From Quatrionicoccus australiensis (GTDB lineage: Bacteria > Pseudomonadota > Gammaproteobacteria > Burkholderiales > Rhodocyclaceae), in contig NZ_JAHBAH010000002.1 of the NCBI RefSeq assembly GCF_020510425.1, forward strand, positions 62,001-126,000: DNA of 64,000 nucleotides. Direction: 5' to 3'. Below, piece after piece: positions 43,988 to 63,614 of the stretch (within the stretch, counting starts at the first letter, position 1; each line of letters opens with the position of its first letter). The position numbers were made by a program, and so were the translations under genes. Below the pieces are notes generated by a model. That model did no database searches, was not told the DNA's origin, and worked only from the letters and a program-made list of their open reading frames with translations.

Positions 43988-45337
43988 TCACCGTGCCAAG
44001 CCGTAATAACCATTTAAATAACGCACCAGCCGTGTTGTCTCCTCCTGCGTTAGCGACTCCACACCGCGTAGCTGGCGGTAGGAGTGCATGCGTGTCAGGC
44101 TCGGCGTCCAGTCGCTGCGCCGCGACAGTAGCAGACGGCGTGCGTCGTGGCAGGCCAGGCATTTTTGTTCGACCAGTTTTTCCGTGCCAGCACCGTCGGG
44201 TTTGAACTGGCCGCTGCGCACTTCCGCGGCGCGTTTCTGGTCCATCTCGGCCTTGCCGGCGATGCGTGAGGCGAACTGCACGTAGCAGACTTCACCGTCG
44301 CGCACTTCGCGGCTGCCCCGCCGTTCCTCGATATTGACCAGGTGTTCGACGTAGTCGCCGTTCTTCGTGCGGCGGTTGATGTTGTAGTTGTAGAACTCGG
44401 AAAACACCACGTCACCGTTGCGCAGCACCTTGACGGCCATTAGTTGGTCGTCGCTATCGGGCCGTTCCGGCAGGTAGGCGACGGCGCCATCCGGGGCGAT
44501 GCGCCCGATACGGCCGCGTTCGTCGCCGGAAAACCACAGCACGCCATCCGCTGCCGCCGACATTTGCTGGATGTAGGTGGCGTCGGGCAGTTTCTGCTCG
44601 GTAAGTTTGCCATCGGCGGCGATGCGCCCCAGCACGAAACGGCAGTGATCGGAGAAGGCGAGGCCGCCGGCGACCGGCGTCAGGTTGCTCGGACAACTGT
44701 TCTCCCACGCCGCCACGGTGGTCCACTGGCCATCGTGCGACAGCGTCGCCAGTTGCCCTTTGGGCCGCGCTCCATTGTGTCCCGGCACGAGGATGGTCAC
44801 CCAGGCGCGGTCCTGGCGGTCGAAGGCCAGTGAAGTCGGCCAGCCCTCGCGCACGGGAAAATCGTGCATCTTTCCCTGACCGTCGATGCGACCGACCTTG
44901 GCGAGCATCGCGCTGCCATGGCCGGCGTGTTCGTCACTGTCGTTTTCATGCCCGGACATCTGCGTGAACCACGCTTCACCCCGGCGGTCGACCGCGACCA
45001 TGCCGGGATGGCCGTCACGAGTAGGAAATTCCCGAATGCGCCCGTCGGGTGCCAGACGACCGATCTTGCCGCCGTCCATTTCGACAAACCAGAGGTTGCC
45101 CCGGCGATCCAGCGTCAGGGCGCTGGGTTCGGCATTTTTCGTCGGCAGCGGATAGGCCTTGACGCTGCCGTCCGGCGCCAGCCGCGACACGGCATTGTTG
45201 TCGCCTTCGGTGAACCAGATGCCGCCGGTTTTATCCTCCACCAGTTGGTAGGAGCCGAAAGGCCGGCAGGCCTGCGCCGGCGTCGCCAGCAGCATGCTCA
45301 GGCTGAAGAGAACGGGGAAAATCGCTTGCTTGCGCAT
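43988..45337 (-). CDS. Secreted beta-propeller protein with C-terminal heme-c domain
   Basis: A 449-residue protein from ATG 45337 (AAGGAG upstream). A signal peptide (residues 1-23, ending TPAQA) precedes six or more repeats like GGIWFTEGDNNAVSRLAPDG and GNLWFVEMDGGKIGRLAPDG, the NHL/streptogramin-lyase type beta-propeller. Near the C-terminus is a heme-c motif CLACH followed by ARRLLLSRRSDWTPSLTRM, very like the heme domain of the quinohemoprotein amine dehydrogenase alpha subunit. It is the last gene of the radical SAM operon. I infer a periplasmic redox or binding protein that may work with the modified peptide; a lyase activity is unlikely. Confidence 0.75.
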   Translation of the reverse strand: MRKQAIFPVLFSLSMLLATPAQACRPFGSYQLVEDKTGGIWFTEGDNNAVSRLAPDGSVKAYPLPTKNAEPSALTLDRRGNLWFVEMDGGKIGRLAPDGRIREFPTRDGHPGMVAVDRRGEAWFTQMSGHENDSDEHAGHGSAMLAKVGRIDGQGKMHDFPVREGWPTSLAFDRQDRAWVTILVPGHNGARPKGQLATLSHDGQWTTVAAWENSCPSNLTPVAGGLAFSDHCRFVLGRIAADGKLTEQKLPDATYIQQMSAAADGVLWFSGDERGRIGRIAPDGAVAYLPERPDSDDQLMAVKVLRNGDVVFSEFYNYNINRRTKNGDYVEHLVNIEERRGSREVRDGEVCYVQFASRIAGKAEMDQKRAAEVRSGQFKPDGAGTEKLVEQKCLACHDARRLLLSRRSDWTPSLTRMHSYRQLRGVESLTQEETTRLVRYLNGYYGLAR

Positions 45338-45354
45338 GCACAACTCCTTGCCAG

Positions 45355-47268
45355 TCAAAAACGCAAAATGAATTCGCCGCGCAGGGTGCGCGGTTCGCCA
45401 TGCCAGAAGAAGCCGCTGACGTAGTCGCGGTCGAAGACGTTGTCCAGCGCCAGCGTCGCTTCCCAGCCTTTGGCCCGCCAACTGGTGGCCAGGTCGAGCA
45501 CGTCGTAGGCCGCCTTTTTCCAGCGGTAGCCCTGGCTATCGACCACGGTATTCGCTTCGTCGGTGTAGGCGCTGCCGACCAGGCGCCATTTGGCGCGGGC
45601 GGAAAATCCTGCGGTCGACGCGTAATTCAGGACAAAATTTGCCTTGTGCCGGGGCATGTCCGGCAGCGCGTTGCCGACCAGTTGCGGCGCCGACTGGTCG
45701 CGGACGATACGGGTCCGGGTGTAGGTGTAATTGGCGTTGAGCTGCCAACGCTCGGCCAGCGGCTGCGACCAGTGCGTTTCCAGCCCGTACGCCCGCACCT
45801 CGCCGACGTTTTGCGCCTGCTGCACCACCGGCGAACCGTAATCGAGGATGCGCACGGCGATCTTGTCCTGCCAGCGCGTCGCAAACAGGGTGATGCCGCC
45901 GTTGCCGCCGGCCAAGTTGCCGAGCAGGGCGAGGTCGGCGGTGGTCGAGCGCTCCGGCTTCAAGGCCGGGTTGGCCAGCGTCACCGAGCCGGCGCTGACA
46001 AAGCCGTTGTACAACTGCGTCGCCTGCGGCGGCGAAAAGCCGCTGCCCAGGCTGCCGCGCAGGCGGGTGGCTTCGCCCAGCGGCCAGGAAAGGGCAATCT
46101 TCGGGCTGGTCGCCGCCTTGACCACACCGCCGCCCAGCGTCTCCTGCCAGGGCGGGCCGGCATCGACCACGCGTGATGACACGTAGCGTTGCCAGTCACG
46201 GCGCAGGCCCAGTTCCAGACGACCGGCGCCGAGCGGCATTTCACCGGCAGCGAACAGCGCCTCCTTGCGGATCAGCGAATCGGCCTGCGTGCGCAAAGCG
46301 CGGCTGGCGTAATCGCTGGCGCTGAATTGTTCCGACAGTTCGATCAGGCTGCCGCCCAGCCGCCCCTGCCAGCCGCCGTCCTGCCAAACCAGCGCCGCCG
46401 AGGCCTCGCGCTGGCGGGAATTCTGGGTCAGCCACTGGTCCGCCGCCAGGCCGGCGGCGTCGATACCGCTACCGCGATCCCGCACCCCGGCCGTGGCGTA
46501 ACGATCTTCGCCCAAGGCGGCCTCCAGAGACCAGCGTTCGTTCACCTTCCAGGAAAACTGGCTGCGGGCAGTATCGGTTTGCCAGTCGAAGGCCCAGTTC
46601 GGGCGCCCGAAAAAGGAACGGTTGTCCGAGTGCTTGAGGTTCAACGAACTGGCAAAATCGCTGCCGTTCCAGGCCAGCTTGCCGTCCACGGAAGTGCCTC
46701 GGCCATGCTCGTCGGCCACTGTGATCTGGTAGGGAAAAGGCGAGCACGGCACGGTGCGGAAACCCTTGTCCTCGCGGCTTTCCGCCAGCAGCGCCCAGGC
46801 CAGCTCGGCGCGTTCGCCGCTGCCGCCCACCCGGGTATAGCTGCCGCCACGGGAATCCAGCCCCTGCGTCAGGTTGACCGCAGGATTCTGCCGACCGCCG
46901 GCCGGCCGCGTCGTCACCGCAATCGCCCCGCCCATCGCCTCGGCGCCGAAACGCGCCGACGCCGCGCCGCGCAACACTTCGATGCGCTCCACCTGCTCCG
47001 GGCGCAAGGCAGACAACTCGCTGACGGAAGAAACGAAGCCATCGACCACCACGGCAATGCCGCGCACCCCGCGCATGCTGATGACGCTGTTGTTCTCGTC
47101 CAGCCCGACTCGCCGCTTCAGCATCTCCAGCAAGCTGGCCGGCTTCTCGCGGGCGATGTCGGCGGCGGTGATAACCGAGACGTCGGTTTCAGCCGTGTTT
47201 TCGCCCTGCGCCAGCACACTCGCCGGCAAGCTCGCCAGCAGAAAAACCAAGCACCAGCTCCGCCGCAT
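45355..47268 (-). CDS. TonB-dependent outer-membrane receptor
   Basis: A 637-residue receptor. The signal peptide (MRRSWCLVFLLASLPASVLA) is followed by a plug domain (DVSVITAADIAREKPASLLE, ISMRGVRGIAVVVDGFVSS, RIEVLRGAASARFGAEAMGG) and a beta-barrel ending in LRGEFILRF, with a terminal Phe as usual. The start codon overlaps the stop of the ABC permease gene (TGATG), so it belongs to the radical SAM operon. TonB receptors import metal chelates, cobalamin and some peptides; here the ligand could be the operon's own product. Confidence 0.88.
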   Translation of the reverse strand: MRRSWCLVFLLASLPASVLAQGENTAETDVSVITAADIAREKPASLLEMLKRRVGLDENNSVISMRGVRGIAVVVDGFVSSVSELSALRPEQVERIEVLRGAASARFGAEAMGGAIAVTTRPAGGRQNPAVNLTQGLDSRGGSYTRVGGSGERAELAWALLAESREDKGFRTVPCSPFPYQITVADEHGRGTSVDGKLAWNGSDFASSLNLKHSDNRSFFGRPNWAFDWQTDTARSQFSWKVNERWSLEAALGEDRYATAGVRDRGSGIDAAGLAADQWLTQNSRQREASAALVWQDGGWQGRLGGSLIELSEQFSASDYASRALRTQADSLIRKEALFAAGEMPLGAGRLELGLRRDWQRYVSSRVVDAGPPWQETLGGGVVKAATSPKIALSWPLGEATRLRGSLGSGFSPPQATQLYNGFVSAGSVTLANPALKPERSTTADLALLGNLAGGNGGITLFATRWQDKIAVRILDYGSPVVQQAQNVGEVRAYGLETHWSQPLAERWQLNANYTYTRTRIVRDQSAPQLVGNALPDMPRHKANFVLNYASTAGFSARAKWRLVGSAYTDEANTVVDSQGYRWKKAAYDVLDLATSWRAKGWEATLALDNVFDRDYVSGFFWHGEPRTLRGEFILRF

Positions 47269-48029
47269 CACCAGGTGAAATTCCGCAGGCGACGCGCCGC
47301 CACCCAATCGGCCAGCGGCACGAGAAGCAGTGTGGTCGCCGCCAGTCCCGCCGCCACCCAGTGGGTCGGCAGACTGCCGCCACCGGTCGCATAGGCCGCC
47401 CGCAGCCCCTCGCTGAGATAGGTGGTCGGCAAGAGCAGCGCCACGCTGTCGAAAGGCGGAATCAGCATGGCGAAGGAGTAGAAGGTACAGCCGAAAAAAG
47501 TCATCGGCATCATCAGCAGGGAAAAAATGTCCTGCCCCTGTTTTGGCGTGGCCGGTGCCAGCAACACCACCACCGCCAGCAACGAAAATAGCAGCGAGCC
47601 GAAAAAGCAGAAATAGGCGATCAGCAACCAGTTTTCCGGGACGATGCCGAGGATGATCCAGATCAGGCCGACCGCCACGGCGGCGCTGGCCATGCCGTAG
47701 AGCGTGCCGCTGGCGAGCAGGGCCAGCAACAGCGCGCGCACGCCGACCGGAGACAGCAGCCAGGCTTCCATGGTCCGGAAGTAAAAGCCGGACAGGATGG
47801 AACTGCCGACCACCAGATACGGCGCGCTCATCAGCGAAATCGCCACCACCCCCGGCGCCATCACCGCTGCATAGTTGCCGGAATTTCCTGCCGGCAGCAT
47901 GCGGCCCACGACATAGCCGAACACGAAGAGATAGATCGCCGGTTGCAGCACCATGCGCGTGAAGCTGACCCGCAACGAGCGGCACTCGACAGCGAAATTG
48001 CGGGCCAGCATGGCCCAGACAAAACTCAT
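47268..48029 (-). CDS. ABC-2 type transporter permease
   Basis: A 253-residue membrane protein with six predicted spans and the ABC-2 permease signature region (MMPMTFFGCTFYSFAMLIPP, followed by LPTTYLSEGLRAAY). It overlaps the upstream ATPase gene by four bases and the downstream receptor gene by one. With the ATPase it forms an exporter, the expected partner of a ribosomally made, enzyme-modified peptide. Confidence 0.9.
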   Translation of the reverse strand: MSFVWAMLARNFAVECRSLRVSFTRMVLQPAIYLFVFGYVVGRMLPAGNSGNYAAVMAPGVVAISLMSAPYLVVGSSILSGFYFRTMEAWLLSPVGVRALLLALLASGTLYGMASAAVAVGLIWIILGIVPENWLLIAYFCFFGSLLFSLLAVVVLLAPATPKQGQDIFSLLMMPMTFFGCTFYSFAMLIPPFDSVALLLPTTYLSEGLRAAYATGGGSLPTHWVAAGLAATTLLLVPLADWVAARRLRNFTW

Positions 48030-48763
48030 CGCCCATCCTCCGCGCCCGCCGCTTCCTGAAACAAGGCTTCCAGGCCGCCATTCAGCCCGGTCGCCAACGC
48101 CGTCGGCGTATCGCAGGCGACAATCCGGCCCCGGCGCAGCAACGCCACCCGGTCACACAGGCGCTCCGCCTCTTCCATGTGGTGGGTAGACAGGAAAACC
48201 GTGCCGCCGCCATCGCGAAAGTCGCGGATATGCCGCCAGATGCTCGCCCGGATTTCCGGGTCTAGACCGCTGGTCGGCTCATCCAGCACCAGCAAGCGCG
48301 GCGAGGTGAGGAAGGCCTTGGCCAGCATCACCTTGCGCTTGGTGCCGCCGGACAGGTGCATGATTTCCGCAGCGGCCTTGTCGGTGAGGCCGAGTTGCTC
48401 CAGCCAGTGACCGACCCGCGTCGTGATGTCAGCCCGGCGCAGGCCGAAATAACGGCAATGGAAAACCAGGTTAGCACGCACATCCAGATCCACGTCGAGG
48501 TTGTTCTCCTGGGGTACCACGCCCAACTGGCGTTTGATCGTTTCCGGCTGCTCGCCGGGATCCAGCCCCAGCACGCGCACCATCCCCCGGCTCGGCCGCA
48601 TCAGGCTGGCCAGAATCTTGATGAGCGTGGTTTTTCCGGCGCCGTTGGCGCCAAGCAAGCCGAATACTTCCCCCGCTTGCACTTGCAACGACAAACCGTC
48701 GAGCGCGTGCTGCCCATTGGGATAGACGACCCCCAGATTGTCGACAACGATAGCGGGTGACAT
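48026..48763 (-). CDS. ABC transporter ATP-binding protein
   Basis: A 245-residue ATPase from ATG 48763 (MSPAIVVDNLGVVYPNG), two bases after the stop of the third radical SAM gene. All motifs are present: Walker A LLGANGAGKTTLIK, signature LSGGTKRKVMLAKA and Walker B LLVLDEPTSGLD. It is of the drug/peptide-exporter type that pairs with ABC-2 permeases. The position inside the operon implies export of the peptide or of a product derived from it. Confidence 0.92.
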   Translation of the reverse strand: MSPAIVVDNLGVVYPNGQHALDGLSLQVQAGEVFGLLGANGAGKTTLIKILASLMRPSRGMVRVLGLDPGEQPETIKRQLGVVPQENNLDVDLDVRANLVFHCRYFGLRRADITTRVGHWLEQLGLTDKAAAEIMHLSGGTKRKVMLAKAFLTSPRLLVLDEPTSGLDPEIRASIWRHIRDFRDGGGTVFLSTHHMEEAERLCDRVALLRRGRIVACDTPTALATGLNGGLEALFQEAAGAEDGR

Positions 48764-48765
48764 TC

Positions 48766-49884
48766 CTACTCCACCCCGATGGCCCTGCGCAGACGACCGG
48801 CCTGCTCGACATCGGCCATGCCTTGCGCCAAATCCGGCGCCAGCGCCCGGAAAGTGGCGTGTATTCGCCCGCAGTAATCCGCCGCCGGCAGCTCGATATT
48901 GCCGTTCGCCAGGGAGGCCTCGGCATAACACTGCCCGCCGCAGACGCCCCGCACCGCACACGCCTGGCAACGCGGCCGGCCCGCCGTGGTCGCCGCGGCA
49001 AAACGGGCAACGATGCGGCGCGAACGCGCATCGGGATAGTCATCGACATGGCCCATGGCCAATTCATCGACCCCGACAAAATGTTCGCACGGGTAGAGCA
49101 TGCCGTCGGCAGCCAGGGCCAGGATGCCGCCCCCGGCCAGGCATGGACGCTCCGCATCTTCACCAGCCACCGTGTGAACGGCCAGACGCAGGGCATGCTC
49201 GCAAGCCGTCGACGTTTCGCCGGCCAGCAGCGCCCGCAGGCCGCGCCGGTTGAGTTCGACCATGACGCGGCTCAGTTGCTGCCGCTCGACCACCGACCAG
49301 TGCACACCCTGGGCCGGCAACACACGCACCGACTGGGCGCCGAGCGTGGACAGAAAAGCGACCGTTCCCACCACCTGCCCGACATTGGCCGGCGTCACCG
49401 TGGCCCGCAGGGCAAACGGGATGCGCCGTTGCCGAAGCTGTTCGAGATTGTCCAGAATAACCGGGAATGCCGGCCGACCATCGCGGAACACCCGCCCGCT
49501 GTTCGCCACGGCATCGCCATCGAGACTGATCGCCAGGTAAGCGATGTGCCTTTCGATGAAATCGAGCATCGCTTCATCGAGCAGCGTTCCGTTGGTGGTC
49601 AGGGCAAAGGACAGCCCGCGCCCGCTTTCGGCCGCGAGGCGGCTGGCGTGGCGAACGGTTTCCTCTAGCAAGGGGAAATTGAGCAGCGGCTCGCCGCCGA
49701 AGAAGGACAGGGTCAGCCGTTCGCCGGCCAAGGGCAGCAGGCGCTCCAGGCCTCGCCGCATGATGGCCTCCGGCATATGGCGTTCCGCCTGGCCGAAGCC
49801 GCCTCCGGCGGCGTAACAGTAGGTGCAGGCCAGATTGCATTCCTGGGCCACCACCAGATAGAGATTGCGCAACACTTCAGACAT
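48766..49884 (-). CDS. Radical SAM/SPASM peptide maturase (third)
   Basis: A 372-residue radical SAM enzyme. The [4Fe-4S] motif CNLACTYC lies at residue 16, so there is no N-terminal peptide-binding extension, unlike the other two. It has FFGGEPLLNFPLL and LTTNGTLLDE in the core, and SPASM cysteines at the end (DGMLYPCEHFVG, CQACAVRGVCGGQCYAEA). It overlaps the upstream radical SAM gene by eight bases. By family it should install thioether or carbon bonds on a peptide or act as a helper maturase. Three such enzymes for one peptide is unusual. Confidence 0.85.
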   Translation of the reverse strand: MSEVLRNLYLVVAQECNLACTYCYAAGGGFGQAERHMPEAIMRRGLERLLPLAGERLTLSFFGGEPLLNFPLLEETVRHASRLAAESGRGLSFALTTNGTLLDEAMLDFIERHIAYLAISLDGDAVANSGRVFRDGRPAFPVILDNLEQLRQRRIPFALRATVTPANVGQVVGTVAFLSTLGAQSVRVLPAQGVHWSVVERQQLSRVMVELNRRGLRALLAGETSTACEHALRLAVHTVAGEDAERPCLAGGGILALAADGMLYPCEHFVGVDELAMGHVDDYPDARSRRIVARFAAATTAGRPRCQACAVRGVCGGQCYAEASLANGNIELPAADYCGRIHATFRALAPDLAQGMADVEQAGRLRRAIGVE

Positions 49885-51241
49885 GGGAAGGCGGCGGCGC
49901 GCCGATCATGCCGCGCACCTTGCGCAACAACACTTGCGCCTGCTCAGGCCGTCCCACGGTGTCGACAAAGGCCACCAGCACCTTCTCGGCCACGGCCTTG
50001 AAAACAGCGCAATGGCCGCGATCCGGCTGGCGGACGGAACCGCTCTGGAACCAGGCATTGGCATAACAGCCGCCACCACACAGGTAACGCGCCCAGCACC
50101 GCTGACAGCCGTCGACCGAACGCAGATCAAGGCCGGCGAAATCTTCGTGCAGGCGCTGGAAATCCGGACTGGCCGGATCGTCCACCCGTCCCATGGCAAA
50201 CGCCGACTGACCGGCCAAGCCATGGCAGGCATAGATAGCCCCATCGGCCATCACCGCCAGGTCGCGCCCGATGTTGCAGTGGCGCAGCAGGCGCCGCTTG
50301 GTCAGCAGGCCGGCGACGATCTGGAAGGTGTATTCGTGCCAGGGTTCGGCGGCTTCGTCGAGGTCGGCCAGGTCCGCCGCAGCGTTCCCGGCCTGCATCG
50401 CCACGTAACGCTCGAACACCTCGCCGGCCAGCGCCCAATCGGCCTCTGCCGGCCCGAAAGCCGGGGTAAGGGCGGCATTGTCGGCTCCCAGGCTGCGCAG
50501 GTAGGCGAGGGATTCCTGATAATGGCCCCCCCCCTGGGCGGTCAGCGTTCCCTTGACAGTAACCCGCAAGCCGGTGTTTTCCTTGAGCAAACGAATCGTC
50601 GCCACCGCCCGGTCGTGAACGCTGTGTTCGCCCTTTTCTGCATGGCGATGCCGGTCATTGACCGCCTTGATGCCGTCCAGACTCACCGTCACCGCCACGA
50701 AATGACGATCCAGCAAGGCCAGTATCTCGCGGTTCATGACCGTGCCGTTGGTGGTCAGGCTGAAGTCGATGCGAATATCCCGTTCCCGCCGCAAACGTTC
50801 GGCGTAGTCGACCAGGGGTTCGATCAGGCCGACGTTCAGCAGGGGTTCGCCGCCATACAGCGCAATGGCATAGAGCACGCCCGGTCGCCAGAAGAAGCGG
50901 TCAATCGCCGCCTTGGCGGTGGCGAAGGACATCATGGCCAACGGCGCCACCGCCCGCCCGCGCTGGTTGTAGCAATATGTGCAAGCCAGATTGCAATCGT
51001 GGGCGGTGTACAAACACAGGCTGCGCACCTCGCCTTCATCACCTCCAACGGGCGGCAGATCGGCTTTCCCCCTGCCCGCCTCCGCCGCGAGCATGGCAGC
51101 CGCCTCCGGTGGCACCTCGCCATGCCCGGCCAGCCAGGATTTCAGGCGTTCGCCGATGCCTTGCGGCACGGCATAGAACTTGCCACTCTCGGGAAAATAG
51201 ACGATGCCGGCCTCGACGATGACATGGCAATCAGGCGCCAT
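49877..51241 (-). CDS. Radical SAM/SPASM peptide maturase (second)
   Basis: A 454-residue enzyme from ATG 51241; an earlier non-ATG start would overlap the previous gene further. About 90 N-terminal residues, possibly a peptide-recognition part, precede the radical SAM motif CNLACTYC. Core segments IALYGGEPLLNVGLIEPL and SLTTNGTVMNRE follow, and the SPASM domain ends it (DGAIYACHGLAGQ, CQRCWARYLCGGGCYANA). It overlaps the first maturase gene by 11 bases, indicating coupled translation. Its closest sequence kin in the window are the two neighbouring maturases, from which it probably arose by duplication. Confidence 0.87.
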   Translation of the reverse strand: MAPDCHVIVEAGIVYFPESGKFYAVPQGIGERLKSWLAGHGEVPPEAAAMLAAEAGRGKADLPPVGGDEGEVRSLCLYTAHDCNLACTYCYNQRGRAVAPLAMMSFATAKAAIDRFFWRPGVLYAIALYGGEPLLNVGLIEPLVDYAERLRRERDIRIDFSLTTNGTVMNREILALLDRHFVAVTVSLDGIKAVNDRHRHAEKGEHSVHDRAVATIRLLKENTGLRVTVKGTLTAQGGGHYQESLAYLRSLGADNAALTPAFGPAEADWALAGEVFERYVAMQAGNAAADLADLDEAAEPWHEYTFQIVAGLLTKRRLLRHCNIGRDLAVMADGAIYACHGLAGQSAFAMGRVDDPASPDFQRLHEDFAGLDLRSVDGCQRCWARYLCGGGCYANAWFQSGSVRQPDRGHCAVFKAVAEKVLVAFVDTVGRPEQAQVLLRKVRGMIGAPPPSHV

Positions 51242-52667
51242 GCACTTCGCCCTGCGCCCGGCTATCCGCTGCACCACCACGGATCGCATTGCCCAACCGA
51301 GTGACCAGTTTGCTGCGCTGTTCCGGTTGCTCCATCAAGGCCACCAGATCGGGCAGCAGTTCCTCGACGACGGTCTTGATGTATTGGCAATGGCGCGCTA
51401 CCGGTGGCGAGATACTGCCATGCTCGGAGAATGAGAACTTGGCGCATGAACCGCCGCACAGGTAGCGCGCCCAGCAGTCGCGACAGCCCTCGCGATTGTC
51501 CACCGTGGCATCTATGAACTGTTGGCGGATGCCCTGGTAACGTTCGCTGGACTTCAGTTCGGGATCGCTGACGTTGCCCATATTGAAATCCTCCAGGCCG
51601 ACGAAGCGGTGGCAAGGATAGACATCCCCCTCAGCCGTCACCGCCAGCAGGTTGGTCCCGGCATTGCAGTGATAGTAGGCATGGCGGCGGGAAACAAAGT
51701 AATAGAGGATGTAGAAGGGATACTCGAAAGCCACCGGCGCTTCGCCATCCATGATGCTGGCGAGACCGCGTCGGTTGATGTCCACAACCTGTTTCAGGAA
51801 ACGCTGGTAGTCGGCATCGCCGATATAAAGCGGGCCATCCTTGGGCGCGTCGACATCGACAATGCCGATACCGCCAGGATTGAAGCTTTCCATATGCTGA
51901 TAAATTTCACCCACCTGATCGCAGCCGGCGCGAGTAACGATGGAGCGGAAGGACCAGCCAAAAGGCGCATCCTTGGTCAGCTTGCGGATATTTTCCTCGG
52001 CCAGGTCGTAGACGCTGTCGCCAGACTTGGCCACCCTTTGAGCGTCGTTCAGTGCTTTCGGGCCATCCAGACTGAAGGTGACATCGCTGATGTGTTCCCG
52101 GAAAAAAGCATCAATTTTCGGGTTGTACAGGGTGCCGTTGGTGACGATACAGAGATTGATATCCGCCTTGCCCTCGTCACGGTAGCTCCGCACCAGCTCA
52201 GCGGTCTTCTCCATCAACGGAAAATTCATCAGGGGTTCGCCGCCGAAAAAAGTGACAAAGTGCTTGCCTTCTCCTCCCGAGAAAAACTGCTCGAAGGTGC
52301 GGTTCATCACCGTTTCGCTCATGCGGCCACGCTTGCCGTATTCGCCTTCGTTGCCGTAACAATAGGCACACTTCAGATTGCATTCCTGACAAACGAAAAG
52401 ATAGGCGCCAATTACCTTGTCGGTAATGTCCTCCGGCGAACGTACCGATTGCGCCGGTTTGGCGCGCTCCATGTAACGGTCGGCAAACTGGTTAACCTCC
52501 TCCCAGCGCGTTGCTTCGCTATCGCCATCGAGTGTTCGCGCCACTTCCACTTTGCGCAGCACACCGTAGGTTTCGGCATCAATGGAAAACAGCGCCACCG
52601 GCAGCGTCAGAAAGAGAAAATGGCGATCATCTTTCCGAAAGACATGAAAATTCTTTTTTTCGAGCAT
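51231..52667 (-). CDS. Radical SAM/SPASM peptide maturase (first), QhpD-like layout
   Basis: A 478-residue enzyme. Residues 1-80 form an N-terminal domain (FHVFRKDDRHFLFLTLP) suited to binding a leader peptide. The radical SAM motif is C96-x3-C100-x2-C103 (CNLKCAYC). Core segments TFFGGEPLMNFPLMEK and IVTNGTLYNPK and a SPASM domain (DVYPCHRFVG, CRDCWARYLCGGSC) follow. Length and order fit QhpD-type maturases that make thioether links within a small protein. It is the gene nearest the Cys-rich peptide (68 bases away) and therefore the prime candidate for modifying it. Confidence 0.88.
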   Translation of the reverse strand: MLEKKNFHVFRKDDRHFLFLTLPVALFSIDAETYGVLRKVEVARTLDGDSEATRWEEVNQFADRYMERAKPAQSVRSPEDITDKVIGAYLFVCQECNLKCAYCYGNEGEYGKRGRMSETVMNRTFEQFFSGGEGKHFVTFFGGEPLMNFPLMEKTAELVRSYRDEGKADINLCIVTNGTLYNPKIDAFFREHISDVTFSLDGPKALNDAQRVAKSGDSVYDLAEENIRKLTKDAPFGWSFRSIVTRAGCDQVGEIYQHMESFNPGGIGIVDVDAPKDGPLYIGDADYQRFLKQVVDINRRGLASIMDGEAPVAFEYPFYILYYFVSRRHAYYHCNAGTNLLAVTAEGDVYPCHRFVGLEDFNMGNVSDPELKSSERYQGIRQQFIDATVDNREGCRDCWARYLCGGSCAKFSFSEHGSISPPVARHCQYIKTVVEELLPDLVALMEQPEQRSKLVTRLGNAIRGGAADSRAQGEVHGA

Positions 52668-52685
52668 GGTTTTTCCAAGAGGGAA

Positions 52686-52699
52686 GCCCGGCCACGGGC
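52686..52699 (-). promoter_or_regulatory. Hairpin between peptide gene and maturase
   Basis: GCCCG-TGGC-CGGGC folds into a short GC-rich hairpin in the 68-base gap. Such partial terminators often let the small precursor be made in excess over its enzymes. No T run follows, so the effect is a guess. Confidence 0.35.
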
Positions 52700-52735
52700 G
52701 GTTTCGTTAATGGTTGGAAAAAAAGCCGGCGCTGT

Positions 52736-52861
52736 TCAGCGCATGGCCCCGCACTTGCACATCATCCCGCCTTGCGTGCCGCAGCAAGCCATGGCGGTCA
52801 TTACTTCAAATGCTTCATTACAGCCTTCCAGAGTCTCAAAACTAATTTCCTTGATTTCCAT
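52736..52861 (-). CDS. 41-residue Cys-rich precursor peptide for the radical SAM enzymes
   Basis: A short gene with a very good ribosome binding site (AAGGAGATTCAC before ATG 52861) at the head of the operon. The product has a leader-like acidic half (MEIKEISFETLEGCNEAFE) and a Cys/Gly/Met-rich tail (MACCGTQGGMMCKCGAMR). It has five Cys (14, 26, 27, 35, 37) and five Met besides the first. Size, position and composition are those of a RiPP precursor or a small modified subunit. I know no named family with this CC-x7-CxC pattern. It could be cross-linked through Cys thioethers and may bind metal. Confidence 0.75.
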   Translation of the reverse strand: MEIKEISFETLEGCNEAFEVMTAMACCGTQGGMMCKCGAMR

Positions 52862-52965: not shown

Positions 52966-55215
52966 CTAGAACTTCGCACTCACCCCAGCCCAGAAATTGC
53001 GGCGATCTGCGTGTTCGTATTCCCAGACGACGTATTTGCTGTCGAACAGGTTGTTGACCGCGACAAACACCTCGCTACCGGGTACCGGCAGCTTCATGGA
53101 AACCTTGGCGTCGGCGACGAAATAGTCGGAGGCACGATGGTCGGAGGTATTGGCATCGGTGAAATAGATGGAACTGACATAGCGGCCGCCGATGCGCGCC
53201 TCCCATTGACTGGATGGCGCGTAAACCAGACCCAGATTCAACTTGTGGGGTGCGATGCGCTGGGTGTGCTTGCCCTCCAGCGTCGTGTCATTGGGATTCT
53301 TGCGAATCACCGAGTCGGTGTAGCTGTAATTGGCATAGGGTTTCCAGCCGCCGGGCAGGCTGCCGTCAAAGCCCAGTTCAAAGCCGTTTACCGTCGTCTT
53401 GCCGATATTCACGTACTGCCAGGCCGGGCCGACCGGGATGGTGGAAATCTTGTCCTGATAGTCGGTGTGGTACAGGGCTGCGCGTAACTTGCCCCAGGGT
53501 AGCTGGTGATTGGCCCCGATCTCGTAGGTCGTTGAGGTCTCCGGCTTCAAACCGGTATTGTCGAGCCACATTGGATTACCGCCAGACGATTTCATCCAGT
53601 TCAGTGCCGGCACATAGGCCGTTCCGGCAGACAGATAAACCGAACTCGCCGGCGACAGGTGGTAGCGCAGACCCAGCCGTGGATTGAAGACGCCGTCCGA
53701 TGAATCGGGATAGGTCGTCGCACCGTTGCTCTTGTCACCATGCATCTTGATCCAGTCGTAGCGCCCCCCAACGGTCAGCGTCAGATCATCAAAACGATGC
53801 TCATCCTGGGCAAACAGGCCAGTTGTCGTTTCCTGAGAATCTGTACGGGAGCTACCTCCATTCAGGAAATCATCCCAACCGACTTGATACCAGGCTGTTT
53901 GATAGGACGCTCCAACAATCAAGGTGTTGCCAGCAACTGGATGCAGTTCCGTCTGCGCTTCGACGGTATCCGTCCGGCTCTTGCGATACCAGGTGGCAGC
54001 GAGAATATAACTGCCCATGTTGTAATTCCACGCTTGGTCATCCCACGGCATGAATTGCAGCAATTCCGCATGGCGATATGTCAATTTGACCGAGTTTTGA
54101 TTGGCAAAATCCTTGCGGTACCCAAGTGAATAAGCATCACCTTCGTTCTTGACGCGAAAATTGGGACGCCCACCGAACATGTCCGTATCAGTTCTGAATT
54201 GCTGGAAGCCAAAGGTGATTTCCTGATCGTCTGACGGGCGAATACCACCATTGAGGTTCCATTTTTTATCCGTCCATGCCCTCGATTTCAGATCTTTGCT
54301 TCCATCCGGATCAAGTTCCCGTTGCGCGACATAGCCATCTGTACGGAAATCGAACACGGACAACCGAAAGTCGACTACTTCGTTCGCCATCCCGGCTGCC
54401 GCCCCAAATGACCGCGCATCATGCGAACCCAAAGCCGCTTCTACCTCAGCCCCGGCCGGACCGCTCCAGCGTTTCGGAATAACGTTGACCACGCCGCCGA
54501 TCACGTTTGGCCCATAAAGTGCAGACGCCGGACCACGCACGAGTTCGATCCGCTCGACATCCTGTGCAACAAGAAAATTGAAGCCACCACGGCCAACCAC
54601 GCTCGATATGGACGAGTCGGTCGGCATGCCATCGACCAGAACCACCGATGTCGCGCCAGCGAATGAACCGCCAACCCCACGTATGGAAGGACCACCGTTG
54701 CCCCCTATGGCCGAACTTTCATTGAAGTCCACCCCTTCCATATTGCGCAGGGCGTCCTCCACCTTGAGCAGGTGCTGGCGCCCGATGTCCTTGCTGGTAA
54801 TCACACTGACACTCGCCGGCACCTCATCAATCCGCCGCTCCGTCCGCGTCGCCGTGACCACGATTTCGCTCAGGCTCTGCTCGGCATGTGGAGCCGCGAC
54901 AATCACGTAGCTGTCGCCATCGCGACGGAATTCCAGGCCGCTGCCTTGCAACAAACGACCAAGTGCCTCTTCAACACTCATTTCACCCCGAATGGCCTTG
55001 ACCTTCTTGCTGCCGACGAGATCGGCCGCATGAACGATCTGCACCCCGCTCTGGTTGGCCAGTTGGCGCAACGCAGAAGCTAGCTCCTGCTGGGCAATTT
55101 CAACACTGACGTTCGGTCCGGCCAGCACAGCACCGGCCTGGCAGGCCAGCCATACAGCGACGGCAAGGTATTTGCGGACGTTCTCCGAACGGGCCGGCGT
55201 TTGTTTCTGCAGCAT
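52966..55215 (-). CDS. FecA-type TonB-dependent receptor with STN signalling domain
   Basis: A 749-residue receptor from ATG 55215 (GGGGGAAAC upstream). After a signal peptide comes an STN domain (ASALRQLANQSGVQIVHAAD ... LGRLLQGSGLEFRRD). Then follow the TonB box region (SEIVVTATRTERRIDEVPAS), the plug (RIELVRGPASALYGPNVIGG) and the barrel, ending RRNFWAGVSAKF. STN domains pass a ligand signal to a FecR-like protein, and exactly such a regulator pair is encoded divergently at 55357-56873. A hairpin near 52915-52945 may end the transcript before the peptide operon. Confidence 0.92.
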   Translation of the reverse strand: MLQKQTPARSENVRKYLAVAVWLACQAGAVLAGPNVSVEIAQQELASALRQLANQSGVQIVHAADLVGSKKVKAIRGEMSVEEALGRLLQGSGLEFRRDGDSYVIVAAPHAEQSLSEIVVTATRTERRIDEVPASVSVITSKDIGRQHLLKVEDALRNMEGVDFNESSAIGGNGGPSIRGVGGSFAGATSVVLVDGMPTDSSISSVVGRGGFNFLVAQDVERIELVRGPASALYGPNVIGGVVNVIPKRWSGPAGAEVEAALGSHDARSFGAAAGMANEVVDFRLSVFDFRTDGYVAQRELDPDGSKDLKSRAWTDKKWNLNGGIRPSDDQEITFGFQQFRTDTDMFGGRPNFRVKNEGDAYSLGYRKDFANQNSVKLTYRHAELLQFMPWDDQAWNYNMGSYILAATWYRKSRTDTVEAQTELHPVAGNTLIVGASYQTAWYQVGWDDFLNGGSSRTDSQETTTGLFAQDEHRFDDLTLTVGGRYDWIKMHGDKSNGATTYPDSSDGVFNPRLGLRYHLSPASSVYLSAGTAYVPALNWMKSSGGNPMWLDNTGLKPETSTTYEIGANHQLPWGKLRAALYHTDYQDKISTIPVGPAWQYVNIGKTTVNGFELGFDGSLPGGWKPYANYSYTDSVIRKNPNDTTLEGKHTQRIAPHKLNLGLVYAPSSQWEARIGGRYVSSIYFTDANTSDHRASDYFVADAKVSMKLPVPGSEVFVAVNNLFDSKYVVWEYEHADRRNFWAGVSAKF

Positions 55216-55356
55216 GTTTCCCCCTGATAACAAATGGCGACGAAATGCGCCTTCACCTACCAAGACGAATGCAGCGACGACCTCCCTACCTGAAACCGGC
55301 AAGCTGCGACAACATGTCACATGGAAATCACCCGGCAAGGCCTTTAGCATTGCCGC
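55216..55356. promoter_or_regulatory. Divergent promoter region of receptor and sigma factor
   Basis: These 141 bases separate the STN receptor gene (minus) from the ECF sigma gene (plus), so both promoters must lie here. I could not identify a -35/-10 pair or a Fur box with confidence. Confidence 0.45.
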
Positions 55357-55896
55357 ATGTCCTTCACCCTTGCCCTGAAGTCCCCTGGCGAACTCGACCT
55401 GGCGCAGCTTTACCGCGAGCATTTCGACCATTTGCGGGATTACCTGGCGCGCCGGCTCGATTGCCGCGATGCCGGCCGGGATGCTGCACAGGAGATTTTT
55501 CTTCGCTTGCTGCTGAAACCGCCGGTCGAGACCATTCAAAATCCCCGCGCTTTCCTGTTGCGCAGCGGGCGCAATCTGCTCATCGATCTGGCGCGCCTGG
55601 CCAAGACCCGGCCGCTGCTGCTGCCGATTGACGATTTTCAGGATTCCCTGCCCGACCCGGTGGCTGACCCGGCGCGCATTGCCTCGGCGCGGCAGCAACT
55701 ACAGGCCCTGGCAGAAGGCATCGAAACCCTGCCGCCCAAGTGCCGGCAGGTTTTTTTCCTGCATCGCTTCGACGCCCTGACCCAGAACGAAATCGCTGCG
55801 CAGATGGGCATTTCGGCCAAAATGGTGGAAAAGCAACTGGCCAACGCCATGCTGCAATTGCGGCGCCTGTGGAGCAAGCATTCGGCTGGCGTTTGA
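55357..55896 (+). CDS. ECF sigma factor (FecI-like)
   Basis: A 179-residue sigma-70 family member of the ECF type. It has region 2 (ELDLAQLYREHFDHLRDYLA, RDAAQEIFLRLLL, NPRAFLLRSGRNLLIDLAR) and region 4 (LPPKCRQVFFLHRFDALTQN, EIAAQMGISAKMVEKQL), and lacks regions 1 and 3. FecI-like factors are released by a FecR partner when the outer-membrane receptor binds ligand. The fecR-like gene starts 32 bases downstream and the STN receptor is divergent, completing the three-part circuit. Confidence 0.92.
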   Translation: MSFTLALKSPGELDLAQLYREHFDHLRDYLARRLDCRDAGRDAAQEIFLRLLLKPPVETIQNPRAFLLRSGRNLLIDLARLAKTRPLLLPIDDFQDSLPDPVADPARIASARQQLQALAEGIETLPPKCRQVFFLHRFDALTQNEIAAQMGISAKMVEKQLANAMLQLRRLWSKHSAGV

Positions 55897-55928: not shown

Positions 55929-56873
55929 ATGCCCCATTCGCCCCAAGCCTCTCCAGCCGCTGACAACAGCGAACGCGCCCAGGAAGAAGCCGCCTTCTGG
56001 TTTGCCCGACTGCATGGCGAAAATGTTTCCCGCGAGGAAAGGGCGACCTTTGCCGGCTGGCTGGCAGGCAGCCCGGAAAACGCCCGGGAATTCGGAATTC
56101 TTGAGCAAATCTGGAACCACTCGGCCTGCCTTGCACCGCAAGCCAAGCCGCGCGCGCGACGGTTGTTGCATGGTGCCGCCGGACTGGCCGCCATGGCCCT
56201 GCTGGCCAGCTGGCTGTTCCATACCGCGCCGGGCGAGCTGGTCGCCACCGGCATCGGCGAGCGGAAGCACCTGCAACTCAGCGATGGCAGCGAACTGGAC
56301 CTTGCTCCGCGCACCCGCTTGCACTTCCGCCTGGACAAGGATCAGCGCCATATTGAGCTGCATGAGGGGCAGATCGCCATCAACGTTGGCGCTGATCCGC
56401 AACGACCGCTGGAAGTTGTGGCCAATGGGCATCACATCCGCGATATCGGCACCCGTTTCGTGGTGGAAACCGGGGCGAAGCAGACCCGCGTCAGCGTCGC
56501 CGAGGGCCTGGTGGAAATCCGGCCGGCCAATGGCGATGCAGCGACGCAGCGTCTCGCGGCGGGCGAAGAGGTATCCGTGACTGATGGAAAAATCGGCCCG
56601 GTTTTGGCCGTTGACCGCAGCATTTTGCTGGCGTGGACCAAAGGCCAACTCGCATTTGAAGGCCAGCCGTTAAACGAGGTGATCGCCACCCTCAACCGCT
56701 TCCGCAAGACGCCGATCATCCTGGACGAGCCAAATCTCGGCGGCATGCGCATCAGCGGCGTTTTTCTGATCGACAAGGAAGAAACCGCGCTGATCGCCTT
56801 GAGACAAATCGCCGGTCTGCGCTTTCTGGAAAGCAACGGGATGGTGCACGCCAGCACCGATCATTCCCGCTGA
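55929..56873 (+). CDS. FecR-like anti-sigma/transmembrane sensor
   Basis: A 314-residue protein from ATG 55929; the frame upstream overlaps the sigma gene and is not coding. The cytoplasmic start has the typical DUF4880-like segment (AAFWFARLHGENVSREERAT), then one membrane span (GLAAMALLASWLF, near residues 90-105). The periplasmic FecR domain follows (GIGERKHLQLSDGSELDLAP, IGTRFVVETGAKQTRVSVAE), with a C-terminal STN-like part (IATLNRFRKTPIILD). It relays the receptor signal to the sigma factor. Confidence 0.92.
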   Translation: MPHSPQASPAADNSERAQEEAAFWFARLHGENVSREERATFAGWLAGSPENAREFGILEQIWNHSACLAPQAKPRARRLLHGAAGLAAMALLASWLFHTAPGELVATGIGERKHLQLSDGSELDLAPRTRLHFRLDKDQRHIELHEGQIAINVGADPQRPLEVVANGHHIRDIGTRFVVETGAKQTRVSVAEGLVEIRPANGDAATQRLAAGEEVSVTDGKIGPVLAVDRSILLAWTKGQLAFEGQPLNEVIATLNRFRKTPIILDEPNLGGMRISGVFLIDKEETALIALRQIAGLRFLESNGMVHASTDHSR

Positions 56874-57258: not shown

Positions 57259-57463
57259 ATCCAGCCGGCAGCAACTCGGCCAAAACTGTCTATGGGGTGC
57301 CCGACAATAGAGGTCGGCTATGCGCCAGTTACTCGCCGTTCGGCTCGGAATCCCCGCTAGCCGGAGCTTTCATAGCGGATGACCTAAGCCAACACGTTCC
57401 TGTCACTAATATAAACTGGAGGCATAATTGGATCCAACTTACATAGGAAACCGAGGACAACTA

Positions 57464-60400
57464 ATGACAAGGACAATCTGTGTTGCGCGGGTGGAAGAAA
57501 CGAGTCTCTGGAAGGCGCTATCGAATCGAAATACAGAAGCCGCAAAGCACTTGGGTCCTAATGTTGTCGCGGTATGCAACGAGGCTGCTGATCGGATGAA
57601 GGCAATGGCCGGATACGCACCGCAGTACACGCTTCATGATGAACGCCACCTACTTAGAACCACCGAACTGATGAGCTTGCTGCTAGGTGACGAAGTAAAG
57701 AAACTCAATGAGGTTGAACTGGCTCTTCTGATTCTTTCGGCGTTTTTTCACGACCAAGGAATGCTGCCCTCTGATAGTGATTTGTCGTTGCTTAGGAAGT
57801 CCGATGAGTTCAAGCTTTTTCAGGATAACTGGCGCGTAGATCATCCAAACTACGCAGAAACATCGAGGCAACTAGCCGACCCCACAGTTTCCACCGAACG
57901 AAAGGAGCGGTTGGGCGCGCAGATTGGCGAACTCGATACTGCGATGCTTACCGATTTCCTGCGCCGAGGACACGGACGAAGGTCATCCGAGCATATCCTA
58001 TCCCGTCATCATAGTGACAAGCGCATTGAGGTACAAGGTGTAAACCTTTCGCCGTTGATTGCGCGATTATGCGAAGGGCACGCGCTACCTGCCGACGATA
58101 TAAATCCAAGTCAGGGTTTTAGATACGACGAGCAAGTCGGAACCTATTGCGTCAACATGCCTTTTCTCGCGGCGGTTCTGAGGCTCGCCGACATTCTCGA
58201 CTTCGACCGTGAACGCACACCCGAGGTGCTTTTCAAGAGCATCCACTTCACGTCTCCCGTAAGCTTGTTCGAATGGGAAAAACACCGTGCCGTCGAGGGG
58301 TGGACAATTTCCGAGGAACTGATCCGGTTCTCAGTGAAATGCAAGCACCCGGCGTATCAAGCAGCCGCACTCGCTTACATGGGTTGGATCGATCAGGAGC
58401 TTGAAGCTGCGCATTCGATTTGCCGCCGACAACCACGGGACATTAGCGGTTATCACCTACGACTTCCGACCCATGTCGATCGATCTCGAATCGAACCCGA
58501 TGGTGACTCCTACCGATATCACGACCTCGAATTCTCCCTTTCCAGAGACGAAATTATTCGTCTGCTGATGACCGACGAACTCTACGGCGGAGAACACCTG
58601 TGCATCCGAGAACTGTTGCAAAATTCGCTCGACGCACTGAGGTATCGCCAAGCGCTCTTTGCGGAATCAGACACACAGTGGAGCAAAGGCAAAGTTGAGT
58701 TTTGCCATTTTGTTGATGACGATGGCTACGAGGTTGTCGAGTGTCGAGACAACGGCGTGGGGATGGACGAAGGCATCATCCGCCGGTTCCTTGTGAAAGT
58801 TGGCAGAAGCTACTACCGGTCTCCGGACTTCGAACGCGAGCGAACGAGATTGAGAGCATCCGGTAATGACTTCGACCCCTGCTCCCGATTCGGCATTGGC
58901 TTCATGTCCTGCTTTATGTTGGGTGACAGGATAACTATTGAAACGCGCAAGGACTACGGACACGGGCGACAGTGGGGAGAGCCGCTTGTCGTCGAAATCC
59001 AGGGCTTGAGCGGCCTGCTCGTAGTTAGAAAGGGAAGTGACCAACAGCCTATCGGCACGACCGTAAGGATCGTGTCGCGCAAGAAGCCGTCGTTTCTCGA
59101 CAATTGGTCGGACAAGGTCAAACTCACAACCGTGCTCAGAGGCTATGCCCTGGCAACCGAATTCCCGGTTATCGGGAAATGTGAAGTTCCCGAAATTAAA
59201 GACACAGTGACAATCCCCGTCACGATCGACAAAACGCCAACGGTGCTCGAATCAGCCAATATCAAAGCTGCGGTGACTTTCGATCAAGACCTTTCTGAAG
59301 TATCAAAATCTTTACGGGGATTCGTCCGGGATTCTGTCTTGGTCGACGATCATGGATTACCTTCAGTCGACAATTGTGAGGCAGAGTGGATAGCGAATAC
59401 TGCGGGCCCAGGAAAAAAGTGGATATTACGTTCTCGTACCGGAACAACTTCGTTTGAACGCAATATCCATGGTTACGTTTCCGTTTGTGTCGACGGGATA
59501 TTGGTCGGAGGCGACCCGGGGCGGCATTCTGACGGGGATACACTCCGATATCGGCTGGGATCGTGTAACTCGGGTATCTATTGCGAATCGCCCGCATTAA
59601 TCGATACAAGAGGTGACCTTAAACCTGAAATCACGCCCAGCCGGACTCCTCCAAAGGACAACTTTTCGAGGCAACTCCCGGGCTGGAGTCGACTAAATAG
59701 TTTCTTCAATATTGGTGTAGGGATGCTATGGAAACAACTGGCCAACTACCATTCCAAAGGGCTTTTGCCACAAGCTTTTTGGCAGCTGACAGTCATCTAC
59801 AGCATTCCTGTTGAATGGATTCCACCATCAACGTTATGGGAAACGCTTTCCGTGTCCTTGGTCGATAATAATAATGGGGTTGTATGGCGCAAAGTTCGTG
59901 AACTCGGCGAACTCTTGATGTGTGCGGACGGAGAGGAAACCTTTGCCCTGCGAGACAAACAGGGTGCTAGCGTCGCTCCTTCACAATTTCTGAAAGATTG
60001 GGAAGTAAAAGGCGAGGATCATCCGTCGCTGTCTTGGCGAATGAGATCAAGCGTTCTGCTTATGAGTGCTTTGGATATTAGGGACGATCAAGTAGTTGTT
60101 AATCCGACAGTCCAACCCGACCGGGGCATACCGTTAGGAATGTACACTCGGCGCGGGGCAGTCGGTGTGGCTGGTTTTTTCCTCGCCTACGCAGGCTCTG
60201 CCACAAATGCCATTGCAGTCGAGACACCTTACCCGACCGCCAATAGGAACCATCCTCTTGTTGCGCTGGCGCATCAAAGTATTAATGCAAATGAGCCGAC
60301 CGACCTGCAACGGTTCGCGCAGGGGTTCGTTGCATGTATTTCGGAAACGGTCAGTAGCAAAATAAATACCCCTTCTATAGAGACAGTGGGCTATTGGCAA

Positions 60401-60553
60401 AAACGTGTTGGGCATCTTTACTTCGCGGTTCAGTGGGACCAATGCGAACAGAGCCTCAAGCCGCCTTACCAGCTCTGGACAAAAGCTAAAGGGTGGTTCT
60501 CATTTAGTGAAGTCGACTTCACGCGATGGAAAGACGCGGAACTTACCAGCTAG
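57464..60553 (+). CDS. HD-domain protein with HSP90-like ATPase
   Basis: A 1029-residue protein; ATG 57464 is chosen over a TTG at 57428. An HD-type domain comes first (YTLHDERHLLRTTELM and SAFFHDQGML, residues 50-100). A GHKL/HSP90-type ATP-binding domain follows: N-box ELLQNSLDALRYRQ near residue 381, DNGVGMDE near 428 and FGIGFMSCFM near 476. The remaining 500 residues are unassigned. HSP90-like ATPases joined to other domains recur among single-gene phage-defence candidates. It stands alone with its own upstream region. A defence role is inferred, not shown. Confidence 0.75.
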   Translation: MTRTICVARVEETSLWKALSNRNTEAAKHLGPNVVAVCNEAADRMKAMAGYAPQYTLHDERHLLRTTELMSLLLGDEVKKLNEVELALLILSAFFHDQGMLPSDSDLSLLRKSDEFKLFQDNWRVDHPNYAETSRQLADPTVSTERKERLGAQIGELDTAMLTDFLRRGHGRRSSEHILSRHHSDKRIEVQGVNLSPLIARLCEGHALPADDINPSQGFRYDEQVGTYCVNMPFLAAVLRLADILDFDRERTPEVLFKSIHFTSPVSLFEWEKHRAVEGWTISEELIRFSVKCKHPAYQAAALAYMGWIDQELEAAHSICRRQPRDISGYHLRLPTHVDRSRIEPDGDSYRYHDLEFSLSRDEIIRLLMTDELYGGEHLCIRELLQNSLDALRYRQALFAESDTQWSKGKVEFCHFVDDDGYEVVECRDNGVGMDEGIIRRFLVKVGRSYYRSPDFERERTRLRASGNDFDPCSRFGIGFMSCFMLGDRITIETRKDYGHGRQWGEPLVVEIQGLSGLLVVRKGSDQQPIGTTVRIVSRKKPSFLDNWSDKVKLTTVLRGYALATEFPVIGKCEVPEIKDTVTIPVTIDKTPTVLESANIKAAVTFDQDLSEVSKSLRGFVRDSVLVDDHGLPSVDNCEAEWIANTAGPGKKWILRSRTGTTSFERNIHGYVSVCVDGILVGGDPGRHSDGDTLRYRLGSCNSGIYCESPALIDTRGDLKPEITPSRTPPKDNFSRQLPGWSRLNSFFNIGVGMLWKQLANYHSKGLLPQAFWQLTVIYSIPVEWIPPSTLWETLSVSLVDNNNGVVWRKVRELGELLMCADGEETFALRDKQGASVAPSQFLKDWEVKGEDHPSLSWRMRSSVLLMSALDIRDDQVVVNPTVQPDRGIPLGMYTRRGAVGVAGFFLAYAGSATNAIAVETPYPTANRNHPLVALAHQSINANEPTDLQRFAQGFVACISETVSSKINTPSIETVGYWQKRVGHLYFAVQWDQCEQSLKPPYQLWTKAKGWFSFSEVDFTRWKDAELTS

Positions 60554-61436: not shown

Positions 61437-61439
61437 AGT

Positions 61440-61911
61440 GGTCCAACAATTTCACCCCCATGTGTGGCATGATCGTCGATGCCGACTTGGCCTTATCGAA
61501 AGCACGCTTCAAGGACGAAGTAAACGGTGGGCGTCATGTTCCGAACGCTATCCCTTTGACCGCATCAGTTGGTCTGAATGTGGACGACGGTGGTCCCTGG
61601 TTTCGCGGTATGCGACTGTGCTACCCGGGTCCTACGATCTGGAAGAAAAGGGCGTGGAAAAATCACGAGCCTTCTGGATGATCAACCTGAAGATGGGCTA
61701 CCGCTTCAATAAGCAATGGCAGACGACCATCGATGTCCTGAATCTGTTCAACAAGCAGGCCAATGACATCGAATACTGGGGCGGAGCCTGCACACGGAAT
61801 GAGGCAACTCTTGGAACGGGCGGCTGCGGTGGTGGCAGCGCAATTGATGGCAGACCGATTCATCCGCTTGAATCGAGAACGATACGCCTCGGCTTAAAGG
61901 TGAATTTTTAA
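61440..61911 (+). pseudogene. C-terminal relic of a TonB-dependent receptor
   Basis: The first part reads MIVDADLALSKARFKDE and GVNVDDGG-like barrel strands in one frame. After a frameshift near 61620-61650 it continues RAFWMINLKMGYRFNKQWQT, DVLNLFNKQANDIEYW and ends SRTIRLGLKVNF with the terminal Phe of the barrel. The plug and most of the barrel are gone, cut at the IS1182 relic. It lies beside the cbpAB-like genes and may once have served them. Confidence 0.75.
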
Positions 61912-63525: not shown

Positions 63526-63542
63526 GTTCCACTCCTCGGGAA

Positions 63543-63602
63543 TAAAAACAAAAAGGGCTCCGGCTGACCGCACGCTTTGCGCATGCGGTCAGCCGGAGCC
63601 CT
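63543..63602 (-). terminator. Riboswitch-linked terminator
   Basis: A long perfect stem (GGGCTCCGGCTGACCGCA with its complement, 63555-63601) followed on the minus strand by TTTTTGTTTTT. It lies between the cobalamin riboswitch and cbpA, so ligand binding can switch transcription off. Confidence 0.88.
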
Positions 63603-63614
63603 TGCCTTGGCTCC

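Follow-up and report, generated by a model that had tools for sequence, protein, structure and literature searches.

What is made by eight tightly packed genes that bring together a Cys-rich peptide, three radical S-adenosylmethionine (SAM)/SPASM enzymes, an ATP-binding cassette (ABC) exporter pair, a TonB receptor, and a heme protein? The genes lie on the minus strand at 43988–52861 of a 64,000-nucleotide (nt) stretch of DNA from Quatrionicoccus australiensis (NZ_JAHBAH010000002.1, 62,001–126,000), which is called the window here and whose positions serve as coordinates. A first-pass annotation of this DNA had left two fates for the peptide, re-uptake in the manner of a metallophore or incorporation into a periplasmic redox complex. 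The reading favored here, with moderate confidence, is that the product is a ribosomal peptide metallophore of the thioether type, made by the operon under a FecIRA/MbnIRT-like feedback loop. Re-uptake is favored because a FecI/FecR/STN-TonB module and a putative extracytoplasmic function (ECF) promoter accompany the operon, and the redox complex is weakened because one related locus, L027, has the peptide, an enzyme, the exporter, TonB1, and FecIR but no propeller. The features of the locus are as follows.

55929–56873, plus strand: FecR-type anti-sigma factor (PF04773, 71.7 bits versus a cut-off of 24; PF16220).
55357–55896, plus strand: FecI-type ECF sigma factor (Sigma70 r2/r4 Pfam matches; NCBIfam FecI-like models below their equivalog cut-offs; homologues in 13 of 15 loci).
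55262–55289, minus strand: putative ECF promoter, GTAGGGA-N15-CGTCTT, 46 nt before TonB1, with a -10 element common to most FecIR-linked loci.
52966–55215, minus strand: TonB1, outer-membrane receptor with an STN signaling domain (PF07660, 46.4 bits), plug, and barrel.
52736–52861, minus strand: Cys-rich precursor peptide of 41 amino acids (conserved homologues, profile search, codon-site variation).
51231–52667, minus strand: rSAM1, radical SAM/SPASM maturase with an N-terminal peptide-binding-like domain (family models, predicted structure).
49877–51289, minus strand: rSAM2, radical SAM/SPASM maturase (family models, tree).
48766–49884, minus strand: rSAM3, radical SAM/SPASM maturase without the N-terminal extension (family models, tree).
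48026–48763, minus strand: ABC exporter ATPase (PF00005; top model DrrA-type, below its cut-off).
47268–48029, minus strand: ABC-2 type permease (PF01061, 44.9 bits).
45355–47268, minus strand: TonB2, second TonB-dependent receptor with no STN match (PF00593, PF07715).
43988–45337, minus strand: secreted Vgb-type beta-propeller with a C-terminal c-type heme domain (CLACH, invariant Met).

All eight genes proved real, with the positions and contents that had been claimed for them, and the tight packing was borne out: 68 nt separate the peptide from rSAM1, and the remaining neighbors overlap or lie at most 17 nt apart. The boundary of the operon did not stand, as the unit is larger and reaches 56873 with TonB1, the putative promoter, FecI, and FecR. 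TonB1, on the same strand, ends 104 nt ahead of the peptide start, and FecI and FecR are divergent from it. The window sits on contig C2 (145,710 bases) of a two-contig, 4.3-Mb genome, and C2 is probably a plasmid because ParA- and ParB-type genes are present at 27811–29885.

When rSAM1 was searched against 5.8 billion proteins, the best 120 of 321 matches included 58 at 53–97% identity (one of them a fragment), followed by matches at no more than 42%. In a pattern scan of a species-genome collection, 80 of 116 relatives were retained, and eight of these (L018–L025) matched rSAM1 at 61–70%; a class-wide search added a further locus, L116. This three-enzyme form, termed type A, is thus represented by ten genomes including the window, in eight of which the operon is covered in full (a contig end interrupts L018 within rSAM3, and L025 spans 3.5 kb). 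L020/L110 and L023/L111 are the same loci fetched twice and were each counted once, and the matches in G406 and G573 were taken as L025 and L019 from their contig positions. When the gene order was looked for in other genomes, as the first-pass annotation had proposed, it recurred with proteins 36–70% identical, apart from TonB2 of L024 at 87%. The order TonB1, peptide, rSAM1, rSAM2, rSAM3, ATPase, permease, TonB2, and propeller is found in seven of the eight complete type A loci, and in the eighth, L021, TonB2 is missing from that place. Six further loci (type B, L026–L031) have one maturase at 33–41% identity and include Methylobacter marinus A45, M. tundripaludum SV96, a Methyloversatilis metagenome-assembled genome (MAG), and a Schekmanbacteria MAG; in five of them TonB1, peptide, and the maturase are followed by propeller, TonB2, ATPase, and permease in variable order. 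L027 (a Phaeospirillum MAG) contains only TonB1, peptide, maturase, exporter, and FecIR and is likewise without a TonB2 counterpart. A transposase-like gene splits the permease in L026, and the maturase is frameshifted in L031. Adjoining the type B system of the Schekmanbacteria MAG are two small Cys/His/Met-containing proteins (L029:6299–6685 and 6883–7350) with hydrophobic N-termini and no NCBIfam match.

The operon is sparsely distributed: rSAM1 turned up in 3 of 200 order genomes and 3 of 369 class genomes, both counts including the own genome, and in 2 of 22 genomes of one carrier's family; the propeller profile matches the same three class genomes, which are the own one plus a pair from a single other genus. 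Between the window and L024, DNA identity is 65–71% over most of the aligning front part (one 55-nt piece reaches 80%), 86–91% across TonB2 and on into the propeller gene, and once more 90% at the C-terminal end of that gene; the highly similar TonB2 (window 45355–47268 versus L024:15379–17277) stands beside other operon proteins at 39–63%. On this alignment the jump in identity reads as a recombination mosaic, and patchy occurrence, plasmid location, and the mosaic together suggest that the operon spread horizontally. A plasmid collection gave 187 records by protein, all below 60% (best listed 31%), and no DNA match. The matches in a viral collection, 12 loci at 24–29% identity, were all distant relatives of the enzymes.

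The small peptide was found wherever DNA upstream of rSAM1 was readable, as its predicted co-occurrence demanded: in all nine such type A loci (two copies identical) and in all six type B loci (two identical). It is preceded by an AAGGAG ribosome site, and a profile search returned 34 clusters, one of them near-identical to that of the window. C26, C27, and Gly38 are invariant among 42 unique type A precursors. Both C35 and C37 are kept by 41, all but P0282 with its aberrant tail, and 38 keep C14 and 31 keep Met34; the five unique type B peptides share a Cys, a G-x-M-C motif, and a His at the last or next-to-last position. Across nine copies, pairwise nonsynonymous divergence is 0–0.37, synonymous divergence is undefined or above 0.5 except for the L019/L020 pair (0.04), and variable sites at codon positions 1, 2, and 3 number 20, 15, and 38 of 41 each; judged by these codon comparisons, the peptide is under strong purifying selection. 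It has no match in NCBIfam or Pfam.

A conserved short precursor adjoining SPASM maturases places the operon among radical SAM/SPASM systems for ribosomally synthesized and post-translationally modified peptides (RiPPs) in the broad sense. The maturases differ from the SCIFF and PapB ranthipeptide enzymes, all three lying well under the equivalog cut-offs, with best scores of 218.7 versus 340 for PapB, 200.5 versus 425 for SCIFF, and 241.0 versus 518.7 for nif11; scores to the QhpD equivalog TIGR03906 (164.6, 161.9, and 176.3 bits) are below its cut-off of 453 bits. In a tree of 40 rows, rSAM1, rSAM2, rSAM3, and type B each form a group with 98–100 support; the grouping of type B with rSAM1 is not relied on because its support is 80/71 and the branches are long. 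In the predicted model of rSAM1, residues 7–68 form three strands and two helices, a candidate RiPP recognition element, and the model can be aligned from residue 3 to 5wgg, which we take to be CteB, and from residue 1 to TigE. The structure-match lists are each dominated by a single domain, the propeller core or the radical SAM core. The earlier proposal that the peptide is made, modified, and exported fits the conserved gene set, and on enzyme kinship the three enzymes probably cross-link it.

The case for re-uptake draws on how expression may be controlled. FecI/FecR homologues accompany eight of nine type A loci with upstream DNA and five of six type B loci (in L026, fecI and fecR stand at opposite ends of the locus), and a Pfam STN domain occurs in 11 of 13 TonB1 proteins scanned, a set without L027 and L116. 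TonB1 of L018 and L029 appears to be without STN, because these proteins begin close to the plug. With an ECF sigma factor, a FecR, and an STN-bearing TonB receptor encoded together, the module is of the FecIRA type. A CGTCT[TC] -10 element lies within 90 nt before TonB1 in 10 of 15 loci, compared with 3.7% of random 90-nt windows; variants are CGTCGT in L030 and L116 and CGTCAA in L027, and the element is absent before TonB1 in L018 and L029. When both strands of 14 loci (650,654 bases) were scanned, a stricter two-part pattern had six occurrences, every one directly before TonB1; the window, L021, and L024 fall outside it and carry GTAGGGA-N15-CGTCTT. These patterns are support and not proof, because they were drawn from the sequences in which they were counted and several of the loci are related. 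By eye, palindromes were seen upstream of fecI, GTGCCAATTGGCAC in L023 and GTGCCATATGACAC in L019 and L020, and each may be an operator for a regulator. Control by Fur was rejected, as no box exceeded the shuffle maximum in 13 upstream regions, although L022 equaled it.

The heme protein bears on the rival that survives best, to which we assign a minor share of probability: a quinohemoprotein-like periplasmic redox enzyme, with the cross-linked peptide as small subunit or cofactor carrier docking on the heme-propeller and the TonB receptors importing substrate. In quinohemoprotein amine dehydrogenase (QHNDH), the docking counterpart is the gamma subunit, and the combination here of a small, probably cross-linked peptide with a SPASM maturase, an efflux ABC transporter, and a heme protein parallels qhpA-G, whose peptide bears Cys cross-links (available part of PMC7876137). 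The heme-propeller gene is retained in all eight complete type A and five of six type B loci, the maturase is weakly akin to that of qhp, and the heme domain weakly resembles PF09098/QHNDH alpha (profile E 1e-4 to 1jju; taken alone, it had no match under E 1 among solved structures). Yet the heme protein has a single CxxCH versus two c hemes in QHNDH alpha, and FecIR/STN sensing is unmentioned for qhp in the same available text (PMC7876137). The operon moreover has two TonB receptors and FecIR, is without a QhpA equivalog, the QhpE protease, and QhpG, encodes no protease or flavoprotein monooxygenase among its families, and its peptide in the window has no Trp for quinone formation. No propeller was found by profile in L027, neither in the locus nor in its genome (completeness not given), and the propeller-heme gene is accessory because this one relative shows none. 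Direct membership was rejected, as QhpA (PF09098/TIGR03908) matches below threshold, at 19.2 versus 274 bits, and the genome-wide best QhpA score, 20.5 versus 25.2, belongs to the propeller gene itself. The propeller also did not reach the curated cut-off (600) of the two Vgb models for virginiamycin B lyase. In type B propellers (L026, L028–L031), the C-terminus carries CxxxCH in place of the type A CxxCH.

A secreted peptide that sequesters metal or oxidant for detoxification, like copper-binding captophorins, is improbable. Captophorins are tied to copper detoxification (available part of PMC12668002), the exported peptide is Cys-rich, and the contig also carries a gene with a CzcE domain; two TonB receptors and FecIR nevertheless indicate ligand uptake and sensing, and no metal efflux family is present among the operon's proteins. 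Still less probable is a peptide signal or antimicrobial sensed by its own producer through TonB1/FecIR, which would explain a surface signaling module beside exporter and peptide; against it, the core is nearly invariant in the 42 unique precursors, a constancy that most competition peptides lack, and the operon has no spare gene for an immunity protein. Least probable is a peptide-derived diffusible redox cofactor scavenged by the TonB receptors like pyrroloquinoline quinone (PQQ) and used by the heme-propeller enzyme, since, despite a propeller and c-heme layout resembling quinohemoprotein dehydrogenases and the synthesis of PQQ and mycofactocin by SPASM enzymes, it shares the objections to the redox enzyme (L027, one CxxCH, no protease or flavoprotein monooxygenase, no Trp, and FecIR/STN), and positive feedback by an outside ligand suits a metallophore better.

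The closest functional parallel to the favored metallophore is group I methanobactin. FecI/FecR with a TonB receptor bearing an N-terminal extension, the trait by which group I is defined, is found here, and further shared features are a short precursor with Cys in its C-terminal core, an exporter, the absence of an evident leader protease, and, in some methanobactin operons, a heme protein (MbnM) of unclear role; the feedback loop suggested here is the one already put forward for MbnI/MbnR/MbnT, and specific proteases are not evident in those operons (available part of PMC3621798). The systems differ in their enzymes (three radical SAM/SPASM proteins here, MbnB/MbnC of another family there), exporters (ABC-2 versus MATE), and leaders (acidic versus Lys/Arg-rich). 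On this reading the operon would work like group I methanobactin, yet it is not methanobactin because MbnB is absent from it: PF05114 (MNIO, MbnB) matches none of the nine operon proteins scanned, and MbnC was not searched separately. The Itf cluster of Bacteroides thetaiotaomicron likewise combines a precursor, a radical SAM enzyme, an ABC transporter, and a TonB-dependent transporter, but a YcaO enzyme and a C39-peptidase transporter set it apart, and a further radical SAM enzyme, FecIR, and heme-propeller are not named for it in the available part of PMC11002830. Captophorins and noursin are also copper-binding ribosomal peptides; in the available parts of the sources, such peptides come from MNIO enzymes (methanobactins, captophorins) or from a lanthipeptide route (noursin), not from radical SAM enzymes (PMC3621798, PMC12668002, PMC11002830). 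NCBIfam and Pfam hold no equivalog for the gene set, and the claim that this combination had not been described held up, as no characterized class matched and none was found in the literature searched, whose coverage left out most subscription journals.

A possible sequence of events can be proposed for the metallophore. In the cytoplasm, the acidic leader would be bound by rSAM1 (perhaps also by rSAM2), and the three paralogous enzymes would place thioether-type bonds around the conserved Cys residues. The ABC pair would export the product, which could bind a soft metal outside the cell, most likely copper. The loaded peptide may then bind TonB1, and FecR would relay the signal and free FecI, which would then switch on transcription of TonB1, the peptide, and the genes beyond it in a positive feedback. 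TonB1 and/or TonB2 would import the loaded peptide, and the heme-propeller could be an accessory periplasmic protein that aids metal loading, reduction, or release. With low confidence, copper is the best guess for the metal; the lean is weak and comes from the Cys/Met/His conservation, the lack of a Fur box, and NosZ-like genes in all six carriers, which belong to four genera. NosZ is a copper enzyme, and its family has matches in 62 of 369 class genomes; co-occurrence as an argument for copper was set aside as suggestive yet confounded by kinship. Methylobacter, a genus of methanotrophs that have copper enzymes, accounts for three of the type B hosts.

Several points count against this account. 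The NosZ matches of three of the six carriers fall below the family's curated cut-off, and in one carrier family NosZ is present in 20 of 22 genomes, only two of which carry the operon. FecIR is missing in L018 and L029, so the feedback is not universal, and the promoter counts are circular in the way stated above. The operon encodes no leader protease, and thioether bonds could consume thiols required for metal binding. The propeller is present in 13 of 14 loci that extend past the maturases, which tempers the case against the redox complex. Metal, product, and modification are predictions from the gene content.

Other genes in the genome are recorded here in their own right. A separate second radical SAM peptide system is marked by CbpB at 62009–63676 (minus strand; TIGR04163, 736 bits versus a cut-off of 375), and a small frame just upstream, at about 63376–63525 (minus strand), may be a CbpA-type precursor. 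The genome's single MNIO (PF05114) gene lies on the other contig (C1:3974768–3975559) and possibly belongs to another metal-peptide system. A short frame at 61438–61911 (plus strand) resembles the C-terminal end of a TonB receptor and, by eye, is apparently a fragment; an HD-CE/HATPase-like protein of 1041 amino acids at 57428–60553 (plus strand) is perhaps a defense gene; and the CzcE heavy-metal resistance domain protein is encoded at 145–1131 (minus strand).

Taken more broadly, and more tentatively, the two forms may be the first class of peptide metallophores, probably chalkophores, to be made by radical SAM enzymes, under autoinducing control of the FecIRA kind and spread by plasmids and recombination. 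The one-enzyme form, with the core C...G.MC...H, would then belong to methanotrophs and their relatives, and the three-enzyme form, with the core CC..QGG..C.CG, to sulfur-, iron-, and nitrogen-cycling Proteobacteria. The operon would offer a RiPP class open to testing, with a receptor and a sensor of its own, and it could be studied in culture because the one-enzyme form is present in M. tundripaludum SV96 and in M. marinus A45, where the permease gene is split. If true, the radical SAM route would add a chemistry for metal capture and may explain how copper enzymes are supplied in sulfide-rich, copper-poor habitats.

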